64,000 nucleotides of DNA from Flavobacteriaceae bacterium CRH (GTDB lineage Bacteria > Bacteroidota > Bacteroidia > Flavobacteriales > Flavobacteriaceae): contig LMAJ01000007.1 of assembly GCA_001507425.1 (NCBI GenBank), forward strand, positions 1 through 64,000, in the 5' to 3' direction. This document shows positions 54,558 through 63,774 of this stretch, one piece after another. Below the pieces are notes generated by a model. That model searched no databases. It was not told the DNA's origin and saw only the letters and a program-made list of their open reading frames with translations. Positions within the stretch are counted from its first letter, which is position 1, and each line of letters starts with the position of its first letter. Both the position numbers and the translations under genes were made by a program.

Positions 54558-55784
54558 TTACTTATTATAATCAAAAACACCATCCCATAATTCATCAATT
54601 TGAACAAGTGCTTTATCTAACGGAATAACTTCCCATTTTCCGTTTGTTTCTACACCAAGACCAATGCTTTTTAATTTGAGCAAAGCATCAGTAACATCAA
54701 AATCGAGTTCAGTATTTAACTTCGTTTTAAACCAGGATTCAATTTGATTGTCAAGTTCTTCAGCCGTTAGCGGACTATTATTTTTGTATAAAAAAGTATA
54801 AGCCAGAATGGTTTCCTTCAACACTTCTTCTTCAGATGAGTTTAACAACGAATAAAAAGCGCCGCTGTTGTTTCCGAGATTCTTAAAGTACAAACTATCC
54901 GAAAGCATTTTAGAATACCTGATTTTCTTGTTTACAAAATTATTATACTGGCGAAAGCAATAAGCAGATAAAATTCCTAAAGCAATTAAACCCTGGTTCA
55001 ATGACGTTTTACTGTTTAATAAATCGATAGTTTCGCCCGTTTCATAAGCATCATACATGTTTATAAGGGCCGGAATTACTTTGGCACTCAACAACGAAAT
55101 TCCACCAAAAAGCCCCGGAACCCAAAGTAACAATTTATCTTTCAGGGACATCTTCGGCACCGCATTTGGAAAAATGGTTTCGACGTCATTTTTAGGAACA
55201 CGCTTAAAAATCTTTAACGCAATAGTTCCCGGATCAATAGGCATTTTTCCTAATTTGACCCTTTTCTCACTCAAATAATCGGCATCGTTATAATTTAGGT
55301 AAATCATAACGCGATCATAATATTCGATCTCAATTTCTTTTGTCCAGAAAATATATTTTTTGACCTTTTCTTTTGCCTGATGATGACCACGAACATACAA
55401 TTCATAATCTCTAAAAGCATTAAAATCAATAGAAAGGTTTAAGCCTATTAAGTCAGAATCCTTAAAAGATTTATCTAAAGTTTCCTGATCTAAACGACGA
55501 TAATTACCATGTTCTAAAACCGTTAGGAGCGTTTCTTTAAAAACAGAAAAATTACTTTTGCCCAAAAATATTTCACGCTCGCTTACGCTTAAATCAGGAT
55601 CAAAAAGAGCGTAATTTTGTTTTAAATTTCTATTAAGATTAAAAGCTTCATAATGATAATAATGTTCGATAATATCAAATAGTTTTTTAAAATCATCTAC
55701 CTTTTGTTTCTCTTCGGCGAAAGCTGCTATTTGTTGCTCGAGTAAGAATTCCTTATTAAAGGGAATGTATTGTTCTCGTGTCAT
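54558..55784 (-). CDS. DUF3754 (TMEM143-like) membrane protein
   Basis: 408 residues. N-terminal FIPFNK-like YIPFNKEFLLEQ, a soluble domain to about 225 with FKRVPKNDVETIFPNAVPKM, then two membrane helices (about 230-250 and 268-285) and a cytoplasmic C-terminal part. FKxVPxxDLExLxP is the hallmark of the DUF3754/TMEM143 family. Its human member is mitochondrial. Function unknown. It stands alone. Confidence 0.8.
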   Translation of the reverse strand: MTREQYIPFNKEFLLEQQIAAFAEEKQKVDDFKKLFDIIEHYYHYEAFNLNRNLKQNYALFDPDLSVSEREIFLGKSNFSVFKETLLTVLEHGNYRRLDQETLDKSFKDSDLIGLNLSIDFNAFRDYELYVRGHHQAKEKVKKYIFWTKEIEIEYYDRVMIYLNYNDADYLSEKRVKLGKMPIDPGTIALKIFKRVPKNDVETIFPNAVPKMSLKDKLLLWVPGLFGGISLLSAKVIPALINMYDAYETGETIDLLNSKTSLNQGLIALGILSAYCFRQYNNFVNKKIRYSKMLSDSLYFKNLGNNSGAFYSLLNSSEEEVLKETILAYTFLYKNNSPLTAEELDNQIESWFKTKLNTELDFDVTDALLKLKSIGLGVETNGKWEVIPLDKALVQIDELWDGVFDYNK

Positions 55785-56055: not shown

Positions 56056-57354
56056 TTAATAGGCAACCATGATAAATGTTTCACCATACAAAGTGGTACC
56101 TCCTAAAGTAACTGAATTTGAAGTTGAGTTAGCCGAACCTCCAAATGTAAGCCATACATAATAGGTCTGATTGCTTTCTGTTGTATTATTTGTATACCAC
56201 GTTAATTGTCCTGCGCTTTTATCTGTTACCACCGTAAACCCAGAATAGTTAGGGACTACACCTTGTGGTTGGATAAAAGAAGTAGGACTGGTAGAAAGTC
56301 TAGCAGTTGTATAGCCAAGCATGTTACTTGATACGATAAGTCCTGCGGTTACAGTTGCTCGCCCAGGAGGTACTGAAATGCTAAAACCTGTATAGCGCGG
56401 CGAACCGTTTGGGCTCCAAGTCTGGTTAGCTGCCGGCACGGTACCTTGAATGGTTTGTGGCCCTTTGGTTTGCCATGTAGCAACACCGTTGGCGTCTGAT
56501 GTAAGTACTCTTCCGTTACCCTGTGTACCATCTATTATTTTTAGAGCACCATTAGAAGAACCATTATTAATCTCTACTAAAGTAGTTGGGTTAGATGCAC
56601 CTGTACCTATACCAATTGCTCCAGTTCTATATATACTTCCTGTCTTATTAGACGTAGCATCGGTATTTGTTCCTCCCAAAAGCCATTCTGTACCTGAAAC
56701 TAATCCAGGAAGGGTAGCAGGGTTTTGCCATTTGATATTACCAGCATCATCAATAGATGTTGCAATGTAATTAGGCTGAGGCAGCCCACCATCTGTACCT
56801 TTCGCAATTTGTGCTGATGTCAGAGTGGTTTTATTTGTTGTCTCGTCAATAGTCAGCGCATTGGTGCTTTTTATATTATTCCAAATTCCAAATAATCCAT
56901 TGTTTTTATAGATACCAAAATAGTTGGTGTTTGAAGTTACACGATCTGCTATTTGTGCCTCATTTTTAATGTAGGCATTAAAAATGTTTGTAATGTTTTT
57001 ATTAGACATATTTAAATCCATTGTGGCAATATGATTTCCTAAGTTATCAGCACCCGTAAAACTTGCTCTTGGTACATATTTTAGAACACCGTTAGAATCG
57101 TTCACTAATACATTGTCAGTAGCAGCTCCTGCCTGCAATCCCTGGATTGCTAAAGTATTAGAAGATGTTGTTGTTAAAACGGACGCTTTTGTTAAAGCGC
57201 CACCCAATTGCGTGAAGCCATTATTTTGTGATAATCCGTTGTTTGCAAAAGGGCTAATGGTTACCTTTTCACCATTTGGTGTAACAACTGTTTTCGTTTG
57301 CGCTATCATAAATCCACCGTGGATCAATAAAAGCATACAGGTAATTTTTTTCAT
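56056..57354 (-). CDS. Secreted fibre-like repeat protein, paralog A
   Basis: 432 residues with signal peptide to MIAQ (19). Low-charge Asn/Thr/Gly-rich sequence follows, resembling phage tail-fibre or adhesin stalks (VNDSNGVLKYVPR, TTLTSAQIAKGTDGG, GSIYRTGAIGIGTG, ALKIIDGTQGNGRVLTSDAN). The C-terminal 135 residues form a beta-sandwich-like head with no charged active site. Repeated phrases such as VLxSDANGVxxW occur in many flavobacterial cell-surface proteins. The middle segment (about residues 110-190) is nearly identical to paralog B, while the head differs. Function probably adhesion or surface binding (inference). Confidence 0.65.
   Translation of the reverse strand: MKKITCMLLLIHGGFMIAQTKTVVTPNGEKVTISPFANNGLSQNNGFTQLGGALTKASVLTTTSSNTLAIQGLQAGAATDNVLVNDSNGVLKYVPRASFTGADNLGNHIATMDLNMSNKNITNIFNAYIKNEAQIADRVTSNTNYFGIYKNNGLFGIWNNIKSTNALTIDETTNKTTLTSAQIAKGTDGGLPQPNYIATSIDDAGNIKWQNPATLPGLVSGTEWLLGGTNTDATSNKTGSIYRTGAIGIGTGASNPTTLVEINNGSSNGALKIIDGTQGNGRVLTSDANGVATWQTKGPQTIQGTVPAANQTWSPNGSPRYTGFSISVPPGRATVTAGLIVSSNMLGYTTARLSTSPTSFIQPQGVVPNYSGFTVVTDKSAGQLTWYTNNTTESNQTYYVWLTFGGSANSTSNSVTLGGTTLYGETFIMVAY
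56784..57024. repeat. 241-bp patch nearly identical to 58626-58866
   Basis: Ungapped match at a constant offset of 1842 bp with only 4 differences by eye, whereas the flanking homologous sequence is about 75-80 % identical. This is the pattern of gene conversion or very recent exchange. Confidence 0.9.
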
Positions 57355-57843: not shown

Positions 57844-59196
57844 TTAATGAACAGACTGAAATATTATACTGTCTTCTCCGTAAACTGTACCTCCAAACCA
57901 GGCAAGGTTGCCTGTCCTGCCGGATCCGTCAAGATAACCTGCAATGTAGTTATATGTTTTGTTACCAGAACCAGTATTTGAAATAACAACGCTTCCGCTC
58001 ACTAAGCCATAATTACAACTTGAACTCAAAGCCCCACTAATAAGATTATTTGAACCTTGAATATCACGACTAGGACCACTAGTGCCACCATCGCTAAAAG
58101 TTGATCTTACCCACCAGGATTCGCTATTGCCTGTAACTGAGTTTCCAACTTTAGTTATAATCATATTTACGGTTACAAGCCATTTTCCCGGAGGTAAAGT
58201 TACAGAGGAACCAGTGCTTAAATAGTTAGTTATTCCAGTAGTAGTAGATGGAATATTTACTCCTCCACCCAGAACTCCTGTTGCAAGTGTGATTCCCGCT
58301 GCTTCCCATCGTGTAACTCCATTAGCATCAGAAGTAAGCACTTTATTTGCTCCTTGTGTTCCATCGACTATTTTAAGTGCAGGACTTACAGCTGTAGTAG
58401 TTCCACCACTATTAATATCTAATGTGGTAGTCGGATTAGTATTTACGCCAATAGCCACTTTCCCGGTTCTGTATATAGATCCAGTCTTATTATCTGTGGC
58501 ATCAGTAGTTGTGTTAGCCAAATACCATTCTGTACCTGAAATTAATCCAGGAACGGTAGCAGGGTTTTTCCATAGTATATTTCCGGCACCATCAGCAGAT
58601 ACTGCAAGGTAATTGGGCTGAGGTAGCCCACCATCTGTACCTTTGGCAATTTGTGCTGATGTCAGAGTGGTTTTATTTGTTGTCTCGTCAATAGTCAGCG
58701 CATTGGTGCTTTTTATATTATTCCAAATACCAAATAATCCATTGTTTTTATAGATACCAAAATAGTTGGTGTTTGAAGTTGCACGATCTGCTATTTGTGC
58801 CTCATTTTTAATGTAGGCATTAAAAATGTTTGTAATATTTTTATTAGACATATTTAAATCCATTGTAGCAATGTGATTACCTAAGTTGTCAGCGCCGCCA
58901 AAACCTGATCTCGATACATATTTTAAAACACCATTTGCATCGGTTACTAATATATTGTCAGAATCAGTTCCTGTCTGCAATCCTTTTATTGCCAAAGTGA
59001 AAGAAGCTGTGGTCGTTAAAACTGACTGTTGTGTTAATGCGCCTCCTAATTGTATAAAACCATTATTGGTTGATAACCCATTATTTGCATACGGGCTAAT
59101 AGTTACTTTTTCTCCAAATTGTGTTACTACTGTTTTTGTCTGAGCCATTATTAAACCACTTTGGATCAATAATAAAAGGCAGGTAAATTTTCTCAT
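57844..59196 (-). CDS. Secreted fibre-like repeat protein, paralog B
   Basis: 450 residues, same architecture as paralog A: signal peptide to IMAQ (19), TKTVVTQFGEKVTISPYANN, VTDANGVLKYVSR, an 80-residue middle segment almost the same as in A, and SIYRTGKVAIGVNT. The C-terminal head (from about 300) differs completely, with GVNIPSTTTGITNYLS, LPPGKWLVTVNM and GDSIIF-like ending YGEDSIIFQ, reminiscent of C1q/TNF-type jelly-roll heads. It is divergent from HTH repressor 1 across a 221-bp control region. Confidence 0.65.
   Translation of the reverse strand: MRKFTCLLLLIQSGLIMAQTKTVVTQFGEKVTISPYANNGLSTNNGFIQLGGALTQQSVLTTTASFTLAIKGLQTGTDSDNILVTDANGVLKYVSRSGFGGADNLGNHIATMDLNMSNKNITNIFNAYIKNEAQIADRATSNTNYFGIYKNNGLFGIWNNIKSTNALTIDETTNKTTLTSAQIAKGTDGGLPQPNYLAVSADGAGNILWKNPATVPGLISGTEWYLANTTTDATDNKTGSIYRTGKVAIGVNTNPTTTLDINSGGTTTAVSPALKIVDGTQGANKVLTSDANGVTRWEAAGITLATGVLGGGVNIPSTTTGITNYLSTGSSVTLPPGKWLVTVNMIITKVGNSVTGNSESWWVRSTFSDGGTSGPSRDIQGSNNLISGALSSSCNYGLVSGSVVISNTGSGNKTYNYIAGYLDGSGRTGNLAWFGGTVYGEDSIIFQSVH
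58626..58866. repeat. Second copy of the 241-bp conserved patch
   Basis: Partner of 56784-57024; it encodes the invariant stalk segment of paralog B. Confidence 0.9.
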
Positions 59197-59338
59197 GAAA
59201 TTGAGGATTTCGGTTTATAATTTATTGACTTGATTCTTGATTGCTTTTAGAATTTGTTGTTAAGTGGTGGTATTGGGTAATCTTTAGGACATCTTACTTG
59301 TAACTTAGCTTAGTTTTCTTACTTTTGTCCGTTTCTTT

Positions 59339-59408
59339 ATTTGTATTAACAACAATACAAATTTAGAGTAAAATCTTACAAATACAAATATTTAACGTAA
59401 AATATTAC
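59339..59408. promoter_or_regulatory. Operator region of HTH repressor 1
   Basis: Contains the palindrome ATTTGTATT-N6-AATACAAAT (59339-59362) and two palindromic dodecamers GTAAAATCTTAC (59368-59379) and GTAAAATATTAC (59397-59408), starts 29 bp apart. About 70 bp align with the region before repressor 2 (61593-61661). Confidence 0.65.
59358..59365 (-). promoter_or_regulatory. -7 box directed toward fibre paralog B
   Basis: Minus strand TAAATTTG inside the operator region; the equivalent box is conserved before the small gene at 61380. It gives a leader of about 155 nt to paralog B. Confidence 0.45.
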
Positions 59409-59417
59409 ACTATTTTT

Positions 59418-59795
59418 ATGGGGGCTACTGAAAGAGTAAAGGAGTTTATTGATTATAAAGGGATTACAAGATATAAATTTTGTCAGATGCTTGGGTTTTC
59501 CAATAAGTTTTTGGACAATACCAGTAATATTGGTACAGATAAAGCAAGTAAAATTTTACATCATTTTCCGGATCTTAGTGCAGAATGGCTTTTATCCGGC
59601 AAAGGAAATATGCTAAAATTAGATATCTTAAATGAAACACCTGCAGTTTATAATAAAACGAAAAATGAAGATTTAGAAGATAACGTTAATTACAAACAAC
59701 TGGCCGAAACCCAAAAAGAAACCATCGAAAACCTTAAAAATAAAATCGTATATCTGGAAGCTCAATTAGCAGCATACAATCAAAATAAAAATTGA
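59418..59795 (+). CDS. HTH repressor-like protein 1 (truncated CI-type, coiled-coil tail)
   Basis: 125 residues. N-terminal helix-turn-helix (about 5-65: RVKEFIDYKGITRYKFCQML ... IGTDKASKILHHFPDLSAEWLLSGKGNML), clearly a paralog of repressor 2 at 61679 (shared WLL.G.GNML). Instead of an S24 domain the C-terminus is a coiled coil (about 88-120, ETIENLKNKIVYLEAQLAAY), probably for dimerisation. A DNA-binding regulator. It should bind the palindromic sites just upstream and may control the divergent fibre gene (inference). Confidence 0.8.
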   Translation: MGATERVKEFIDYKGITRYKFCQMLGFSNKFLDNTSNIGTDKASKILHHFPDLSAEWLLSGKGNMLKLDILNETPAVYNKTKNEDLEDNVNYKQLAETQKETIENLKNKIVYLEAQLAAYNQNKN

Positions 59796-59823
59796 GAAAC
59801 AGATTTGAATTTTTTCAAACCAT

Positions 59824-59860
59824 AAAAAAGCGCAAACGTCTTAGACATTTGCGCTTTTTT
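59824..59860 (+). terminator. Terminator of repressor 1
   Basis: AAAAAAGCGCAAA / TTTGCGCTTTTTT, a strong 13-bp stem, with a 12-nt loop. Confidence 0.9.
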
Positions 59861-60013
59861 AATAAAACAATTTCCCAAAGCATACAGCAACACTATTATA
59901 TGGATATTACACAACCTTTTGGTGAGAAAATTGAAAAGTACTTACTCCTTAATATTGTAAATTTGAATAAGGTTAAACGCAAAATTATATCCTTATAAAT
60001 AATTACATCAGAT

Positions 60014-60433
60014 ATGGAAAACATACAAACTACCAAAACCCAAAATTTCTTTAGAATATTGTTGGGAATCTTTATGATAACGGCCGCTTTTGGTCATTTT
60101 ACTTTTCAGAGAGCCGATTTTCAGGCACAAGTTCCAAATTGGGTCCCTTTAGATAAAGATCTGGTAGTAATACTTTCCGGAATTGTAGAAATTGCACTAG
60201 GCCTTGGTATGTTGTTTCTAAAAAAGTACAGAATATACGTAGGGTTCGCACTGGCTTTATTTTACGTATTAGTTTTTCCGGGTAACATCGCACAATATAT
60301 AAACGGAACTTCTGCCTTTGGTCTCGATACAGATCAGGCCCGTTTGATTCGATTGTTTTTTCAGCCCGTTTTAATTTTTCTGACGTTATGGTCTACCGGA
60401 GCCATTGCTTTTTTAAGACAAAAAGCTTCTTAA
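60014..60433 (+). CDS. DoxX family membrane protein
   Basis: 139 residues with four membrane helices. FFRILLGIFMITAAFGHFTF, IVEIALGLGMLFL and a last helix after RLIRLFFQPVLIFLTLW fit the DoxX-like family. These are inner-membrane proteins of uncertain, possibly redox-linked, function. Single gene; 142 bp to the next. Confidence 0.85.
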   Translation: MENIQTTKTQNFFRILLGIFMITAAFGHFTFQRADFQAQVPNWVPLDKDLVVILSGIVEIALGLGMLFLKKYRIYVGFALALFYVLVFPGNIAQYINGTSAFGLDTDQARLIRLFFQPVLIFLTLWSTGAIAFLRQKAS

Positions 60434-60575
60434 AAAGCATATTAGATTTATAAATTTTAAAAGTTCAAAATTATAAATCTCAAAACGCAAAGCTTGCCAT
60501 TGGTATATTTATAATCATAATAAAAATACTAATCTGCCATTAGCCATTTCTATTAGCCTACCTTACAAAAAAAAG

Positions 60576-61184
60576 ATGGCCATAGAAGAGAAGGTAAGGC
60601 AGGTTGAAGCATTGTTTGATCGTCTTGAAATTGAAATTAAAACCTTTCAGTCTCAAACCCATTTGTCTTGTAATGCCGGTTGTGGCAAATGCTGTTCGAC
60701 GCCCAACATCGATGCTTCGCCATTAGAGTTTTTGCCGTGGGCATTTCATTTATTTTTGAATGGAAAAGCTGAAGAAACCTTAGCATTATTAAATAACACC
60801 ACAACTAAAAATTGTTTTTTATACCAGTCACTTTCCGTTATAGAATACCATAAAGGCAGTTGCAGCAACTACCGTTATCGCGGTTTAATATGCCGTCTTT
60901 TTGGCTACGGTGCCAATACCGATAAATTTGGAAAACTACGACTGGTAACCTGCAAAATCATCAAAGAAGAACAATACCAGAACTTCAACAAAGCCGAAGA
61001 AGCCATTAACAAACAAACATAGGTGCCCATTTTTTCTGATTATTATATGCAATTAGCGCAAATTGACCTTAGATTAGGAATTGCTTTACTCCCCGTTAAT
61101 GAAGCACTAAAAATAGCCATAGAAGAAGTCCTGCATTATTATGCTTACAGGCCCTTTCCGGGTGGGCTTGAGCATATTGCTTAA
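60576..61184 (+). pseudogene. YkgJ family cysteine cluster protein, interrupted by an in-frame TAG
   Basis: The open frame stops at TAG (61020-61022) after 148 residues. The same frame continues for 53 codons of clearly protein-like sequence (VPIFSDYYMQLAQIDLRLG ... LHYYAYRPFPGG) to the TAA at 61182. The first part carries the cysteine cluster CNAGCGKCC (residues 32-40) and further cysteines (NCFLY, GSCSNYR, GLICRLFGYG) that bind a metal or Fe-S centre in this family. The continuation matches the normal C-terminus as I remember it. Options are a nonsense mutation, a sequencing error or readthrough. A terminator follows at 61224. Confidence 0.75.
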
Positions 61185-61223
61185 AAATGCTTCAACTAAA
61201 TTCGATTCCTCAAACTAAATAAA

Positions 61224-61256
61224 AAAGCCGTAAAGAAAAATCCTTACGGCTTTACT
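61224..61256 (+). terminator. Terminator after the YkgJ-family gene
   Basis: AAAGCCGTAA / TTACGGCTTT perfect stem with a 10-nt loop. It lies 40 bp beyond the downstream TAA, consistent with the longer reading of the gene. Confidence 0.75.
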
Positions 61257-61379
61257 TCCCTGAAGAGGAAAAGATAATACATGATCAAGTGCATTATCTA
61301 CAGGTATAATTATTTTGCACTTCTAAAAAATCCAGGCTATATTTATCGTAATGATTGTCTAGCGTGTCCTAAATTTTGG

Positions 61380-61586
61380 TTATAATTCGTTGGCCCGATT
61401 TTCAATTGCCTTTTCATATTCACTCGTAAGTTTGTTATATTCTGATTTTAAAACATCACAAATAACCCCAACACGATCGCCGCGAATGCACTTTCTGATG
61501 TAATCGTGCGAATATCCATGTCTTTCTTTAATAATCTTTAACACATCTTGATTATAACTTGGTTTAGTTTTTATATTTTTGCTCAT
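61380..61586 (-). CDS. Small basic protein divergent from repressor 2
   Basis: 68 residues, helical, charged. KERHGYSHDYIRKCIRGDRVG has the spacing of a helix-turn-helix and may bind DNA. The position, divergent from an S24 repressor with overlapping control sequences, resembles a phage CI/Cro pair, but no phage genes are nearby. Not a recognised family. Confidence 0.6.
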   Translation of the reverse strand: MSKNIKTKPSYNQDVLKIIKERHGYSHDYIRKCIRGDRVGVICDVLKSEYNKLTSEYEKAIENRANEL

Positions 61587-61592
61587 TGCTTA

Positions 61593-61661
61593 ATTTGTAT
61601 TAAAAGTAAGACAAATATAAGTAAGATATTTCTTAAAACAAAATAAAATATAAGACATTAC
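61593..61661. promoter_or_regulatory. Operator region of repressor 2
   Basis: ATTTGTATTA at 61593 and dodecamer-like GTAAGATATTTC (61621-61632) and ATAAGACATTAC (61650-61661), again 29 bp apart, align with the region before repressor 1. Confidence 0.6.
61612..61619 (-). promoter_or_regulatory. -7 box of the small divergent gene
   Basis: Minus strand TATATTTG (TAnnTTTG), 25 nt from the ATG at 61586, inside the operator region. Confidence 0.5.
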
Positions 61662-61678
61662 CTAAAAAATAAGTTTTT

Positions 61679-62371
61679 ATGACAGATAACACTTTAAAAA
61701 GAATTAAACAATACTTAGATTTAAAAGGCATTAAAGTTAGTGCCTTCGAAAGAGAAGTTGGCATGTCTAACGGTTCCTTTGCCAGTCAGCTAAAGCACGA
61801 CAAAACGATTGGTGTAGATAAATTAGAAAATATCTTAATCAAATATCCGGATGTAAACCTCGACTGGCTTTTAAAAGGTACAGGAAACATGCTAAATTTT
61901 GATGTACTAAGTGAAAATCCTGAACTCTACGAAAAATTAGAAAAGATTCAAAAACTCGATATTCCGGTTTATGACATTAAAACAACCGGCGAAATTGTCG
62001 ACTTGTTTGGCGACAACCGCGAACAAATGCCCGTTAGTTACATCAGGATCCCTAAAATTACAAGGTGCGACGGAGCTTTGTATGTAACAGGCGATAGCAT
62101 GTACCCGCTATTAAAAGGCGGAGATATAGTAGTATACAAGAAAATTAATAATCTCGAAAACAATATCATTTGGGGCGAAATGTACCTTATTTATGTCCAT
62201 AATGACGATAATGATTTTTTCTTTATCCGATTTTTAAAGCAATCAGAACGCGAGTCTTACGTGCAGTTTGTATCTCAAAACCCAGATCACGAAACAATAG
62301 AATTTCCAATAAGCAGCATAAAAGGACTTGCCATAATTAAAGCTTCTGTAAGGATCAATACGCAGTTTTAA
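61679..62371 (+). CDS. LexA/CI-like repressor with HTH and S24 domain
   Basis: 230 residues. HTH about 5-70 (KGIKVSAFEREVGMSNGSFASQL, IGVDKLENILIKYPDVNLDWLL), linker, then a LexA-like C-terminal domain with Ser140 in VTGDSMYPLLKGGD. The second catalytic residue should lie about 37-44 residues later; FFFIRFLKQ places Arg184 where Lys is expected, and no clear Ala-Gly cleavage site is visible before the serine. It may therefore dimerise without self-cleavage. Divergent from the small gene at 61380. Confidence 0.88.
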   Translation: MTDNTLKRIKQYLDLKGIKVSAFEREVGMSNGSFASQLKHDKTIGVDKLENILIKYPDVNLDWLLKGTGNMLNFDVLSENPELYEKLEKIQKLDIPVYDIKTTGEIVDLFGDNREQMPVSYIRIPKITRCDGALYVTGDSMYPLLKGGDIVVYKKINNLENNIIWGEMYLIYVHNDDNDFFFIRFLKQSERESYVQFVSQNPDHETIEFPISSIKGLAIIKASVRINTQF

Positions 62372-62477: not shown

Positions 62478-62853
62478 TTGTTCCTTTGCACCTTTGTCCC
62501 TTTGAACCTCAAAAAAAATATATAAACAAAAAATGAGATTTCGAAGCCCCCCCAGGTTTGAAATCTCATTTAATTGCTCCAAAAAAAATAACATCTTAAA
62601 TAATCTCCTTCCCAGGAAATTATAATTTTTTGACAAAAATTATTCAGAGCAATTTTACCACAAAATAAAATACTGGCAATACGTATTTATACCTGTTTTT
62701 GAGTTTTTTTTTTGAAGGTTCAAAGGGGCAAAGGTTCAGAGGGACAGAGGAAAAAAGCGCAAATGGCACTTCATTTTGTCCTCCTGAGCGAAGTTGAAGG
62801 ACACGTTCAGAAAGACAATATTGTAAAAACCTTTGTCCCTCTGAACCTCTTTA
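62478..62853. repeat. Scattered copies of a CCTTTGTCCCTTTGAACCTC word, in both orientations
   Basis: Plus-strand forms at about 62478-62509 and 62828-62853 and inverted forms at 62714-62752 (GGTTCAAAGGGGCAAAGG, GGTTCAGAGGGACAGAGG). The last copy overlaps the 3' end of the CxxC protein gene. Confidence 0.75.
62531..62571. repeat. 12-bp hairpin with a C-rich loop
   Basis: AAATGAGATTTC pairs with GAAATCTCATTT; the loop contains seven consecutive C residues. It has little T run, so it may be a processed RNA end or a regulatory structure rather than a terminator. Confidence 0.6.
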
Positions 62854-63298
62854 ACCCAATTATTTTATGAATATACAATATGAGGTTTTCTTTTTCTACT
62901 GAATACAGCGCCTGGTCATCCTCAGTATTCAGATATAATTCGGCAATACTTTCAGCATCCATATCCTCGTGCAGGTGGTGATATTCGACATATTTTATGA
63001 GATTGTCTATAAAAAGTTCCTGACGTTTTCCTTTTTCTACAGCCTCTTCATCGCCATTTTTTATTTTTTCGATTTCAGATTCCGGTAAATCGATCGTGAG
63101 GTACGTAGTATCTACAGCCAATTTCGAGAGCAATTCTTCAGTAACTTTTCCCGAAGCATTACAATAAGCGCAAGGACCCGGCGCCCATTTTAACTGTTTA
63201 TCTAAGCGTCGTATATCTTCCGAATCAACAAAACCTTTTCCCAAACATCTGGGGCATTCTAAATGTGATTTTTTAAGCAGGAAATTAAAAATGGTCAT
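62807..63298 (-). CDS. Protein with two CxxC zinc-finger motifs, unknown
   Basis: 163 residues. Near the N-terminus CPRCLGKGF (15-23) and CAYCNASGK (43-51) form a DnaJ-type CxxCxGxG pair that likely binds one zinc. The remainder is acidic and helical (LPESEIEKIKNGDEEAVEKGK, EDMDAESIAELYLN). The family is common in flavobacteria without a function. The last 14 codons (KRFRGTKVFTILSF) fall within a dispersed repeat, so the natural C-terminus may have been changed by it. Confidence 0.7.
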   Translation of the reverse strand: MTIFNFLLKKSHLECPRCLGKGFVDSEDIRRLDKQLKWAPGPCAYCNASGKVTEELLSKLAVDTTYLTIDLPESEIEKIKNGDEEAVEKGKRQELFIDNLIKYVEYHHLHEDMDAESIAELYLNTEDDQALYSVEKENLILYIHKIIGLKRFRGTKVFTILSF

Positions 63299-63632
63299 TC
63301 TTCTAAAATTTGGGGGTTAACGTTTCGTGACTATGCGAAGATAATTATTTATGTAAGAAAATTATTTTAATCTCGATTATTTTTTGCAATACAAGGTTTG
63401 TAGGGCAGTTTTTGGTTATTATCGTTCCTCAAAATAACCAAGAAAATCACCACCCAGCATGTAATCATTCGTACCTCAGGATGACAAACAACCCCATTGT
63501 TCATATAACAAAACAAAACCTCTCCCTTTACTTACAAAGAAAAACCACACTGCACATATGAAGTGTAAGAATTAATTACCGTTATTTTTTTGATTGATGA
63601 TGAAAACCGCAGTAATTGCAAGGGTTTTTTAA
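63299..63632. other. Intergenic stretch without a supported gene
   Basis: AT-rich. Contains a fragment of the GTCATCC repeat family near 63470-63490 (TACCTCAGGATGACAAAC). Nothing else recognised. Confidence 0.5.
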
Positions 63633-63640
63633 TATCTTTG
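63633..63640 (+). promoter_or_regulatory. -7 box TATCTTTG before the Trp-rich small ORF
   Basis: Exact TAnnTTTG, 20 nt before the ATG at 63661. Confidence 0.6.
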
Positions 63641-63660
63641 GAGTCCTAAATGTTAAGATT

Positions 63661-63774
63661 ATGAACTCAGAAAAAATTTTTGCCCGTGTGGTATGGTGGC
63701 GGTATTGGAAACAACTGCAACGCTCTCTTAACAGCGTAGGACACCTTAGCTATGCGGGTTTTATATTTCCCTAA
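63661..63774 (+). CDS. 37-residue Trp-rich small ORF (possible leader peptide or small protein)
   Basis: ATG to TAA, 37 codons: MNSEKIFARVVWWRYWKQLQ and then RSLNSVGHLSYAGFIFP. Three Trp in five residues and five basic residues make it amphipathic. The sequence GTTAAGATTATGA around its start is repeated exactly around the start of the following gene at 63785. It lies between a good -7 box and that gene. It could be a real small protein, a leader peptide, or chance. Confidence 0.45.
   Translation: MNSEKIFARVVWWRYWKQLQRSLNSVGHLSYAGFIFP

Follow-up and report, generated by a model that had tools for sequence, protein, structure and literature searches.

The closest described relatives of the locus analyzed here occur in Mu-like phages of Bacteroidota (Winogradskyella phage Peternella_1, Porphyromonas phages and TCUEAP3), which likewise combine a repressor, one or more divergent small genes and an early operon, and in which the repressor is of an S24 type related to repressor 2 of our locus and, in the case of TCUEAP3, the small gene is related as well. 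Their early operon, however, opens with a transposase and a B protein, whereas region 1 of our locus carries fibre-like genes, a broken small gene and a repressor 1 that lacks an S24 domain. The same general gene order appears in the excerpted description of the F. columnare prophage fF4 (PMC7761591). The CI/MOR switch of phage TP901-1 is similar in layout, with two divergent promoters within less than 1 kb, a small antagonist and three repressor operators in the excerpted account (PMC7250872), but in our locus the repressor gene itself contains the third site, and the switch has a host surface gene as its cargo. In mycobacteriophage BPs, gp33 has one operator between the early-promoter hexamers and a second beside the repressor gene, but the excerpted source gives other site rules and a switch that needs integration inside the repressor gene (PMC4557955). 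Finally, XRE regulators of adhesin development in Caulobacter and phage phiCbK are repressor-type HTH proteins that occur in both phage and host and control attachment to surfaces; the excerpted report has neither a divergent repressor/Ner switch nor an attached fibre operon (PMC10688885). Among the matches listed from open-licence PMC, by title and beginning of abstract, no paper places fibre genes under such a switch.

The window analyzed comprises bases 1–64,000 of a 306,597-bp contig, in a 5.83 Mb genome of 92 contigs. It contains two repressor loci, regions 1 and 2 (Table 1), bounded by gene p408 (54558–55784) on one side and by a gene at 62807–63298, with no family above cut-off, on the other. 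The interval between the two loci contains a DoxX-like gene at 60014, which does not reach the Pfam cut-off, and at 60576 a gene with a CxxCxxCC domain.

Table 1. Features of regions 1 and 2, in window positions.
Feature	Position	Strand	Description or basis
surfB	56056..57354	-	432 aa, predicted exported fibre-like, surfA paralogue; ORF
surfA	57844..59196	-	450 aa, predicted exported fibre-like, variable C-terminal head; ORF, 12-sequence family alignment
Small Ner-position gene remnant	59215..59332 (ends approximate)	-	Shuffle-tested match, DNA alignment with intact L105
TTTGTnTTA element, region 1	59340..59348	.	Candidate site of Ner-like protein
-7 box (TAnnTTTG), predicted leftward promoter P_L1	59358..59365	-	Motif match
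Operator O1 region 1, GTAA-N4-TTAC (predicted)	59368..59379	.	Motif and class matrix
Operator O2 region 1, GTAA-N4-TTAC (predicted)	59397..59408	.	Motif and class matrix
rep1 (repressor 1)	59418..59795	+	125 aa, class-1 HTH and coiled-coil-like tail, without S24 domain
O3, operator-like, inside rep1	59548..59559	.	Matrix score, conservation
Small Ner-position gene, intact	61380..61586	-	68 aa, three predicted helices
TTTGTnTTA element, region 2	61594..61602	.	Motif
-7 box (TAnnTTTG), predicted leftward promoter P_L2	61612..61619	-	Motif match
Operator O1 region 2, TAAGA-N4-TCTTA (predicted)	61622..61635	.	Motif and class matrix
Operator O2 region 2 (predicted)	61651..61664	.	Weaker match, matrix score 9.3
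rep2 (repressor 2)	61679..62371	+	230 aa, class-2 HTH and S24 domain
O3, operator-like, inside rep2	61823..61837	.	Matrix score, conservation

A first-pass annotation of the window had described repressor 2 as an S24 protein and repressor 1 as a short version with a coiled coil, and both descriptions stand. Repressor 2 matches PF00717 (S24) with 40.6 bits against a cut-off of 23.3, while repressor 1 is an HTH protein whose tail is coiled-coil-like by sequence, with no match in Pfam (S24 included) and with weak PHROGs matches to transcriptional regulators (1.6e-4) in its HTH part only. Self-cleaving repressors of the S24/CI type have a cleavable Ala-Gly in the linker. Repressor 2 has the GDSM motif and a linker that reads Thr-Gly-Glu; Ala-Gly is present in the repressors of loci L094, L107, L117 and L255, and is also missing from some prophage repressors that precede a transposase (L265, L268). 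We note two unusual repressors elsewhere: that of L125 (227 aa, with a fibre-like gene behind it) has GDNM in place of GDSM and seems to have lost the peptidase serine, and that of L108 is split into ORFs of 59 and 60 aa and is apparently broken.

Among repressors of Mu-like phages, the best match to repressor 2 is in Porphyromonas phages (39.7% identity over 97%), with Winogradskyella phages matching too, and the annotated order in both groups is repressor, small gene(s), transposase and B protein. Locus L123 of F. frigoritolerans has a repressor of the class of repressor 1 (class 1, see below), the same small gene as our locus, a transposase (phrog_310, 2.1e-32) and a DNA transposition protein (phrog_296, 3.4e-33). 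Transposase A/B genes follow the small gene in L123 and other prophage modules, and are absent from this place at both window loci. What both loci have is a repressor gene and a divergent small gene with predicted operators between them, intact in region 2 and with the small gene broken in region 1. From this homology and gene order, we consider it likely that both regions descend from the immunity switch of a Mu-like phage.

The upstream regions of the two HTH genes can be aligned, as initially proposed, with a local alignment score of 29, where 2000 dinucleotide shuffles averaged 11.6 and reached 21 at most, and ATTTGTATTA is present in both, at 59339 and at 61593. The opposite-strand TAnnTTTG box reported for both regions was likewise found in each, and corresponds to the sigma-A -7 box consensus of Flavobacterium given in the excerpted source (PMC9723704). 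The distance from the center of O1 to the start of this box is 16–17 bp in 35/35 loci, and a -33 TTG lies at a usable distance in 26/36, which is weak evidence in A+T-rich DNA. A search for promoters of the repressor genes themselves found none: there is no exact TAnnTTTG in region 2, and the one in region 1 (59320) overlaps the small-gene remnant. The GTAA-type dodecamers first assigned to both regions hold for region 1 alone: GTAA-N4-TTAC occurs exactly five times in the 64 kb, including O1, O2 and the site inside rep1, whereas the corresponding dodecamers of region 2 (61621 and 61650) carry one mismatch each, and the window contains 44 such one-mismatch sites. The true palindrome of region 2 is TAAGATATTTCTTA at O1, a site type unlike that of region 1, and comparison with relatives places the TAAGA-N4-TCTTA palindrome at the equivalent position. 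Nor is the operator spacing fixed at exactly 29 bp as first stated, being 29 bp in region 1 and 28–31 bp across the 26 loci with both sites resolved.

The difference in site type has a counterpart in the proteins. The HTH domains of repressors 1 and 2 are 43% identical, and repressor HTH domains as a whole fall into two classes, rep1-like (class 1) and rep2-like (class 2), which are separated by a four-residue gap in the recognition region. Leave-one-out class matrices assigned the correct class in 35/35 loci, many of which are related, in a test that is not fully blind, since the training sites were chosen by class consensus; L126, whose HTH belongs to neither class, and L129 were excluded. 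Operator class goes with repressor HTH class. When conservation of the dodecamers was checked in orthologous loci, the sites were found to be kept, but as two classes rather than one. In region 1 no class-2 site scores above 0.9, and in region 2 no class-1 site scores above 6.1, compared to 18.2 and 19.7 for each region's own best site; with such low cross-class scores it is unlikely that the two repressors share sites, contrary to the cross-regulation that had been proposed. Large-genome congeners (L003–L011 and similar) have a class-1 S24 repressor with operators approximately 31 bp apart and without the small gene, a different gene of 91–92 aa lying further upstream in those examined.

Each repressor gene also contains an operator-like site, O3, which the first-pass annotation did not note. 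O3 of rep1 has the third-ranked class-1 score in the 64 kb (13.2, behind O2 and O1), and O3 of rep2 the second-ranked class-2 score (14.8, behind O1). At coding position 131, GTAAAATnTTAC is present in 30/30 distinct class-1 genes, a set in which 25 genes are without the small gene and mostly seem to represent one orthologous locus, and TTAGA[AG]AATAT[CT][TC]TA is present at coding position 145 in 25/28 class-2 genes, while in L102 O3 is missing from its usual place. Class-1 codon 44 encodes Cys in 26 genes, Gly in three and Ser in one, and ends in GT in all of them; Lys45 is AAA in 30/30, compared to a 15 to 15 split of the Lys42 codons. Class-2 Ile52 is ATC in 25/28 genes, compared to 0 to 7 in four other Ile columns, although Ile18 is likewise invariant. 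This codon choice within O3 points to constraint on the DNA. The five least variable five-codon windows of class 2 all overlap O3, and in class 1 the O3 window is second lowest in variability, the window from codon 11 being lower. Against 300 synonymous shuffles per gene, O3 gave p ≤ 0.05 in 27/35 genes and values of 0.05–0.41 in the other eight. As read from these alignments, O3 is held at synonymous positions in both classes.

The 68-aa gene divergent from rep2 has its only good match in this genome in itself (next E-value 0.115), and its relatives at 29 named loci belong to Flavobacterium in 28 cases and to [Flexibacter] sp. ATCC 35103 in one; a further relative (48.5%) precedes MuA/MuB in the Elizabethkingia phage TCUEAP3. 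Its predicted structure (three helices, pLDDT 87.8) matches a phage protein of unknown function (E-value 4.4e-4, TM 0.85/0.92), while the search against PDB folds returned 64 matches at E ≤ 10 and none at E ≤ 0.001, and no significant link to known Ner proteins was found in Pfam, PHROGs or PDB. The protein may be a DNA-binding one, and the label Ner is given to it by position only. Two weak PADLOC matches (E-values 0.002 and 0.007) were disregarded.

A TTTGTnTTA or TTTGTnCTA element lies 18 bp from the -7 box in the 27 loci with a motif-recognized small gene, as well as in L122 and L125, where the small gene was found by BLAST, and at rep1 of the window; it is absent from the 25 class-1 loci without the small gene and from three class-2 loci without a small gene of this type. 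The repressor sites thus track the repressor, and TTTGTnTTA the small gene. Loci with other small-gene families have, by eye, a similar layout and different sequences. In five loci (L240, L244, L249, L251 and L095), the stretch from repressor to fibre gene contains two different small Ner-position genes, one after the other.

The divergent partners had been given as a 68-residue protein in one region and a fibre-like surface gene in the other. The former is correct; in region 1, however, the neighbor was originally the same small gene, and its remnant precedes surfA. The remnant aligns to the small gene with a score of 54, compared to at most 42 in 300 shuffles. On the minus strand it keeps the beginning of the gene and a short piece of its end, having lost the start codon and approximately 90 nt and acquired one stop. 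On either side of it the DNA can be aligned to the intact L105 locus, at 81.6% over 521 nt and at 77.1% over 393 nt, and the -7 box and TTTGTnTTA element are still present.

The genes behind the remnant, surfA and surfB, share 82% identity over their first 229 residues and are the only members of their family in this genome. Among 12 aligned family members, most share the first ~230 residues and differ in their C-terminal heads. SurfA itself has no match in Pfam, PHROGs or NCBIfam, and its predicted structure (mean pLDDT 46.6) was rejected for fold searching. The family occurs in 22/398 congeners (E ≤ 1e-12), and in four congeners (G213, G453, G261 and G371) an intact small gene is followed by a surfA-family gene after 15, 30, 40 and 29 nt, respectively. 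Together with the phage matches of repressor 2, these four arrangements bear out the earlier suggestion of a phage-derived switch placed before a surface gene.

We consider it probable, as predicted from sequence, that region 1 is such a descendant of a Mu-like switch, in which repressor 1 shuts off the promoter that reads leftward into the surface genes. Exported fibre-like genes would here stand in place of phage early genes, and repressor 1 would most likely bind O1 (beside the P_L1 -7 box), O2 and O3, keeping surfA, and perhaps surfB, off. Joined by its tail, repressor 1 would occupy these three sites, the centers of which are at 59374 (O1), 59403 (O2, 29 bp beyond O1) and 59554 (O3, 151 bp beyond O2). 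With a coiled-coil-like tail and without an S24 domain, this repressor would not be released through damage-linked self-cleavage of the S24 type. Where the small gene is intact, it would be transcribed together with the fibre gene from P_L, and its product could hold the ON state, which could give a two-state switch. As the local small gene is dead, region 1 would now be under one-repressor control, with the local two-gene circuit incomplete, although the intact 68-aa protein of region 2 possibly acts on region 1 in trans through TTTGTnTTA.

To place this arrangement in the genus, two further small-gene families were each searched in 398 genomes and found in 27 and 18 of them, and contexts were taken for 36/36 places of the first family and 14/19 of the second. 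After removal of repeats by repressor sequence, the module table comprised 85 entries, 72 with a called repressor; the 13 entries without one, which still hold repeats and tandem second small genes, were not used. A gene was called "fibre-like" when BLAST matched it to surfA, surfB or one of three larger fibre proteins; a simple scripted rule decided on export, and one 1073-aa fibre has Ig-like domains. The next gene in the 72 modules is fibre-like in 29, a transposase in 13, p408 in 11, and another gene or none in 19; the two fibre-neutral searches taken by themselves give 18 fibre and 12 transposase modules. Repressors are short in 19 and long in 10 modules before a fibre gene, compared to two short and 11 long before a transposase (Fisher P 0.006, relatedness ignored), and the two short forms among the 13 transposase modules indicate that a short repressor marks more than capture. 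Among five loci on viral contigs, a module was found in L129, while L130–L133 had no match to the query set.

It is conceivable, although we offer this tentatively, that captured Mu-like switches are widespread in Flavobacterium and serve as heritable ON/OFF control of fibres that are exported and swap heads; the small-gene families, at least three in number, would be interchangeable, HTH/operator sets would move together, and a further operator would lie in the repressor coding sequence. If true, this would be a repeated natural takeover of a viral decision circuit for bacterial surface display, of which intact, half-decayed and phage-borne versions could be compared, and it would make testable both the joint change of repressor and operator specificity and the role of an operator inside the repressor's own gene.

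An alternative that we judge unlikely is that the repressors are kept mainly for immunity to Mu-like phages of the same class, the surface genes being passengers or prophage morons. Eleven of the 72 modules consist of a repressor and small gene with p408 330–503 nt behind and no fibre gene, so that the switch is evidently kept without need of a fibre, and the operators of the Mu-like prophage at L123 are of class 1, as in region 1. For immunity, however, a repressor alone would suffice, and yet the small gene is intact in all 11 of these p408 modules; moreover, fibre genes recur behind unrelated small-gene families.

Silencing by repressor 1 must also be weighed against surfA and surfB being read from their own promoters, with region 1 a dead, functionless leftover, which we regard as quite improbable. 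The small gene is indeed broken, surfB has its own leftward -7-like box (57450), and 17 of 20 further surfA-family contexts have no switch nearby: it adjoins the fibre gene in three (L175, L178 and L185), lies further off in L172, and was not found in the remaining contexts. On the other hand, the P_L1 box is the sole exact leftward TAnnTTTG between surfA and rep1, both operators and O3 are intact, and rep1 compared to its L105 relative has a dN (0.17) well under dS (0.75), values that average over time before the loss of the small gene.

The two regions had originally been read as a local duplication, which the nearest relatives do not support. In L100 and L101, the loci with the most similar repressor 2 (92% and 93%), the repressor-1/surface block is missing between p408 and the DoxX-like gene, and window DNA from 55785 to ~59895 has no counterpart, the match of 59278–59377 in L101 being to that locus's own switch region. 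Over its full length, repressor 1 has its closest match in a protein of another species, L105/G213 (69%, residues 1–124), and its HTH alone is close to S24 proteins found in many congeners. It is therefore probable that the shared control region did not arise by local duplication, although an older duplication followed by exchange may have occurred. A single control region copied in place, with each repressor acting on the region of the other, would account for the alignable regions and their common -7 box layout and TTTGTnTTA element, but is hardly credible given the differing site types, the low cross scores, the four-residue difference in the recognition region and the missing repressor-1 block in both relatives.

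Two minor observations concern neighboring sequence. The CxxCxxCC-domain gene (60576–61184, +) comprises 148 aa followed by a 53-aa ORF in the same frame, compared to a single ORF of 202 aa in L100 and L102, and thus looks stop-interrupted. Further downstream, after the gene at 62807–63298 and ahead of a small ORF, positions 63682–63761 (+) match the Rfam c4-2 RNA (RF02944) with 72.2 bits against a gathering score of 41, and a trp-leader-like reading of 63616–63774 was abandoned in favor of this match.
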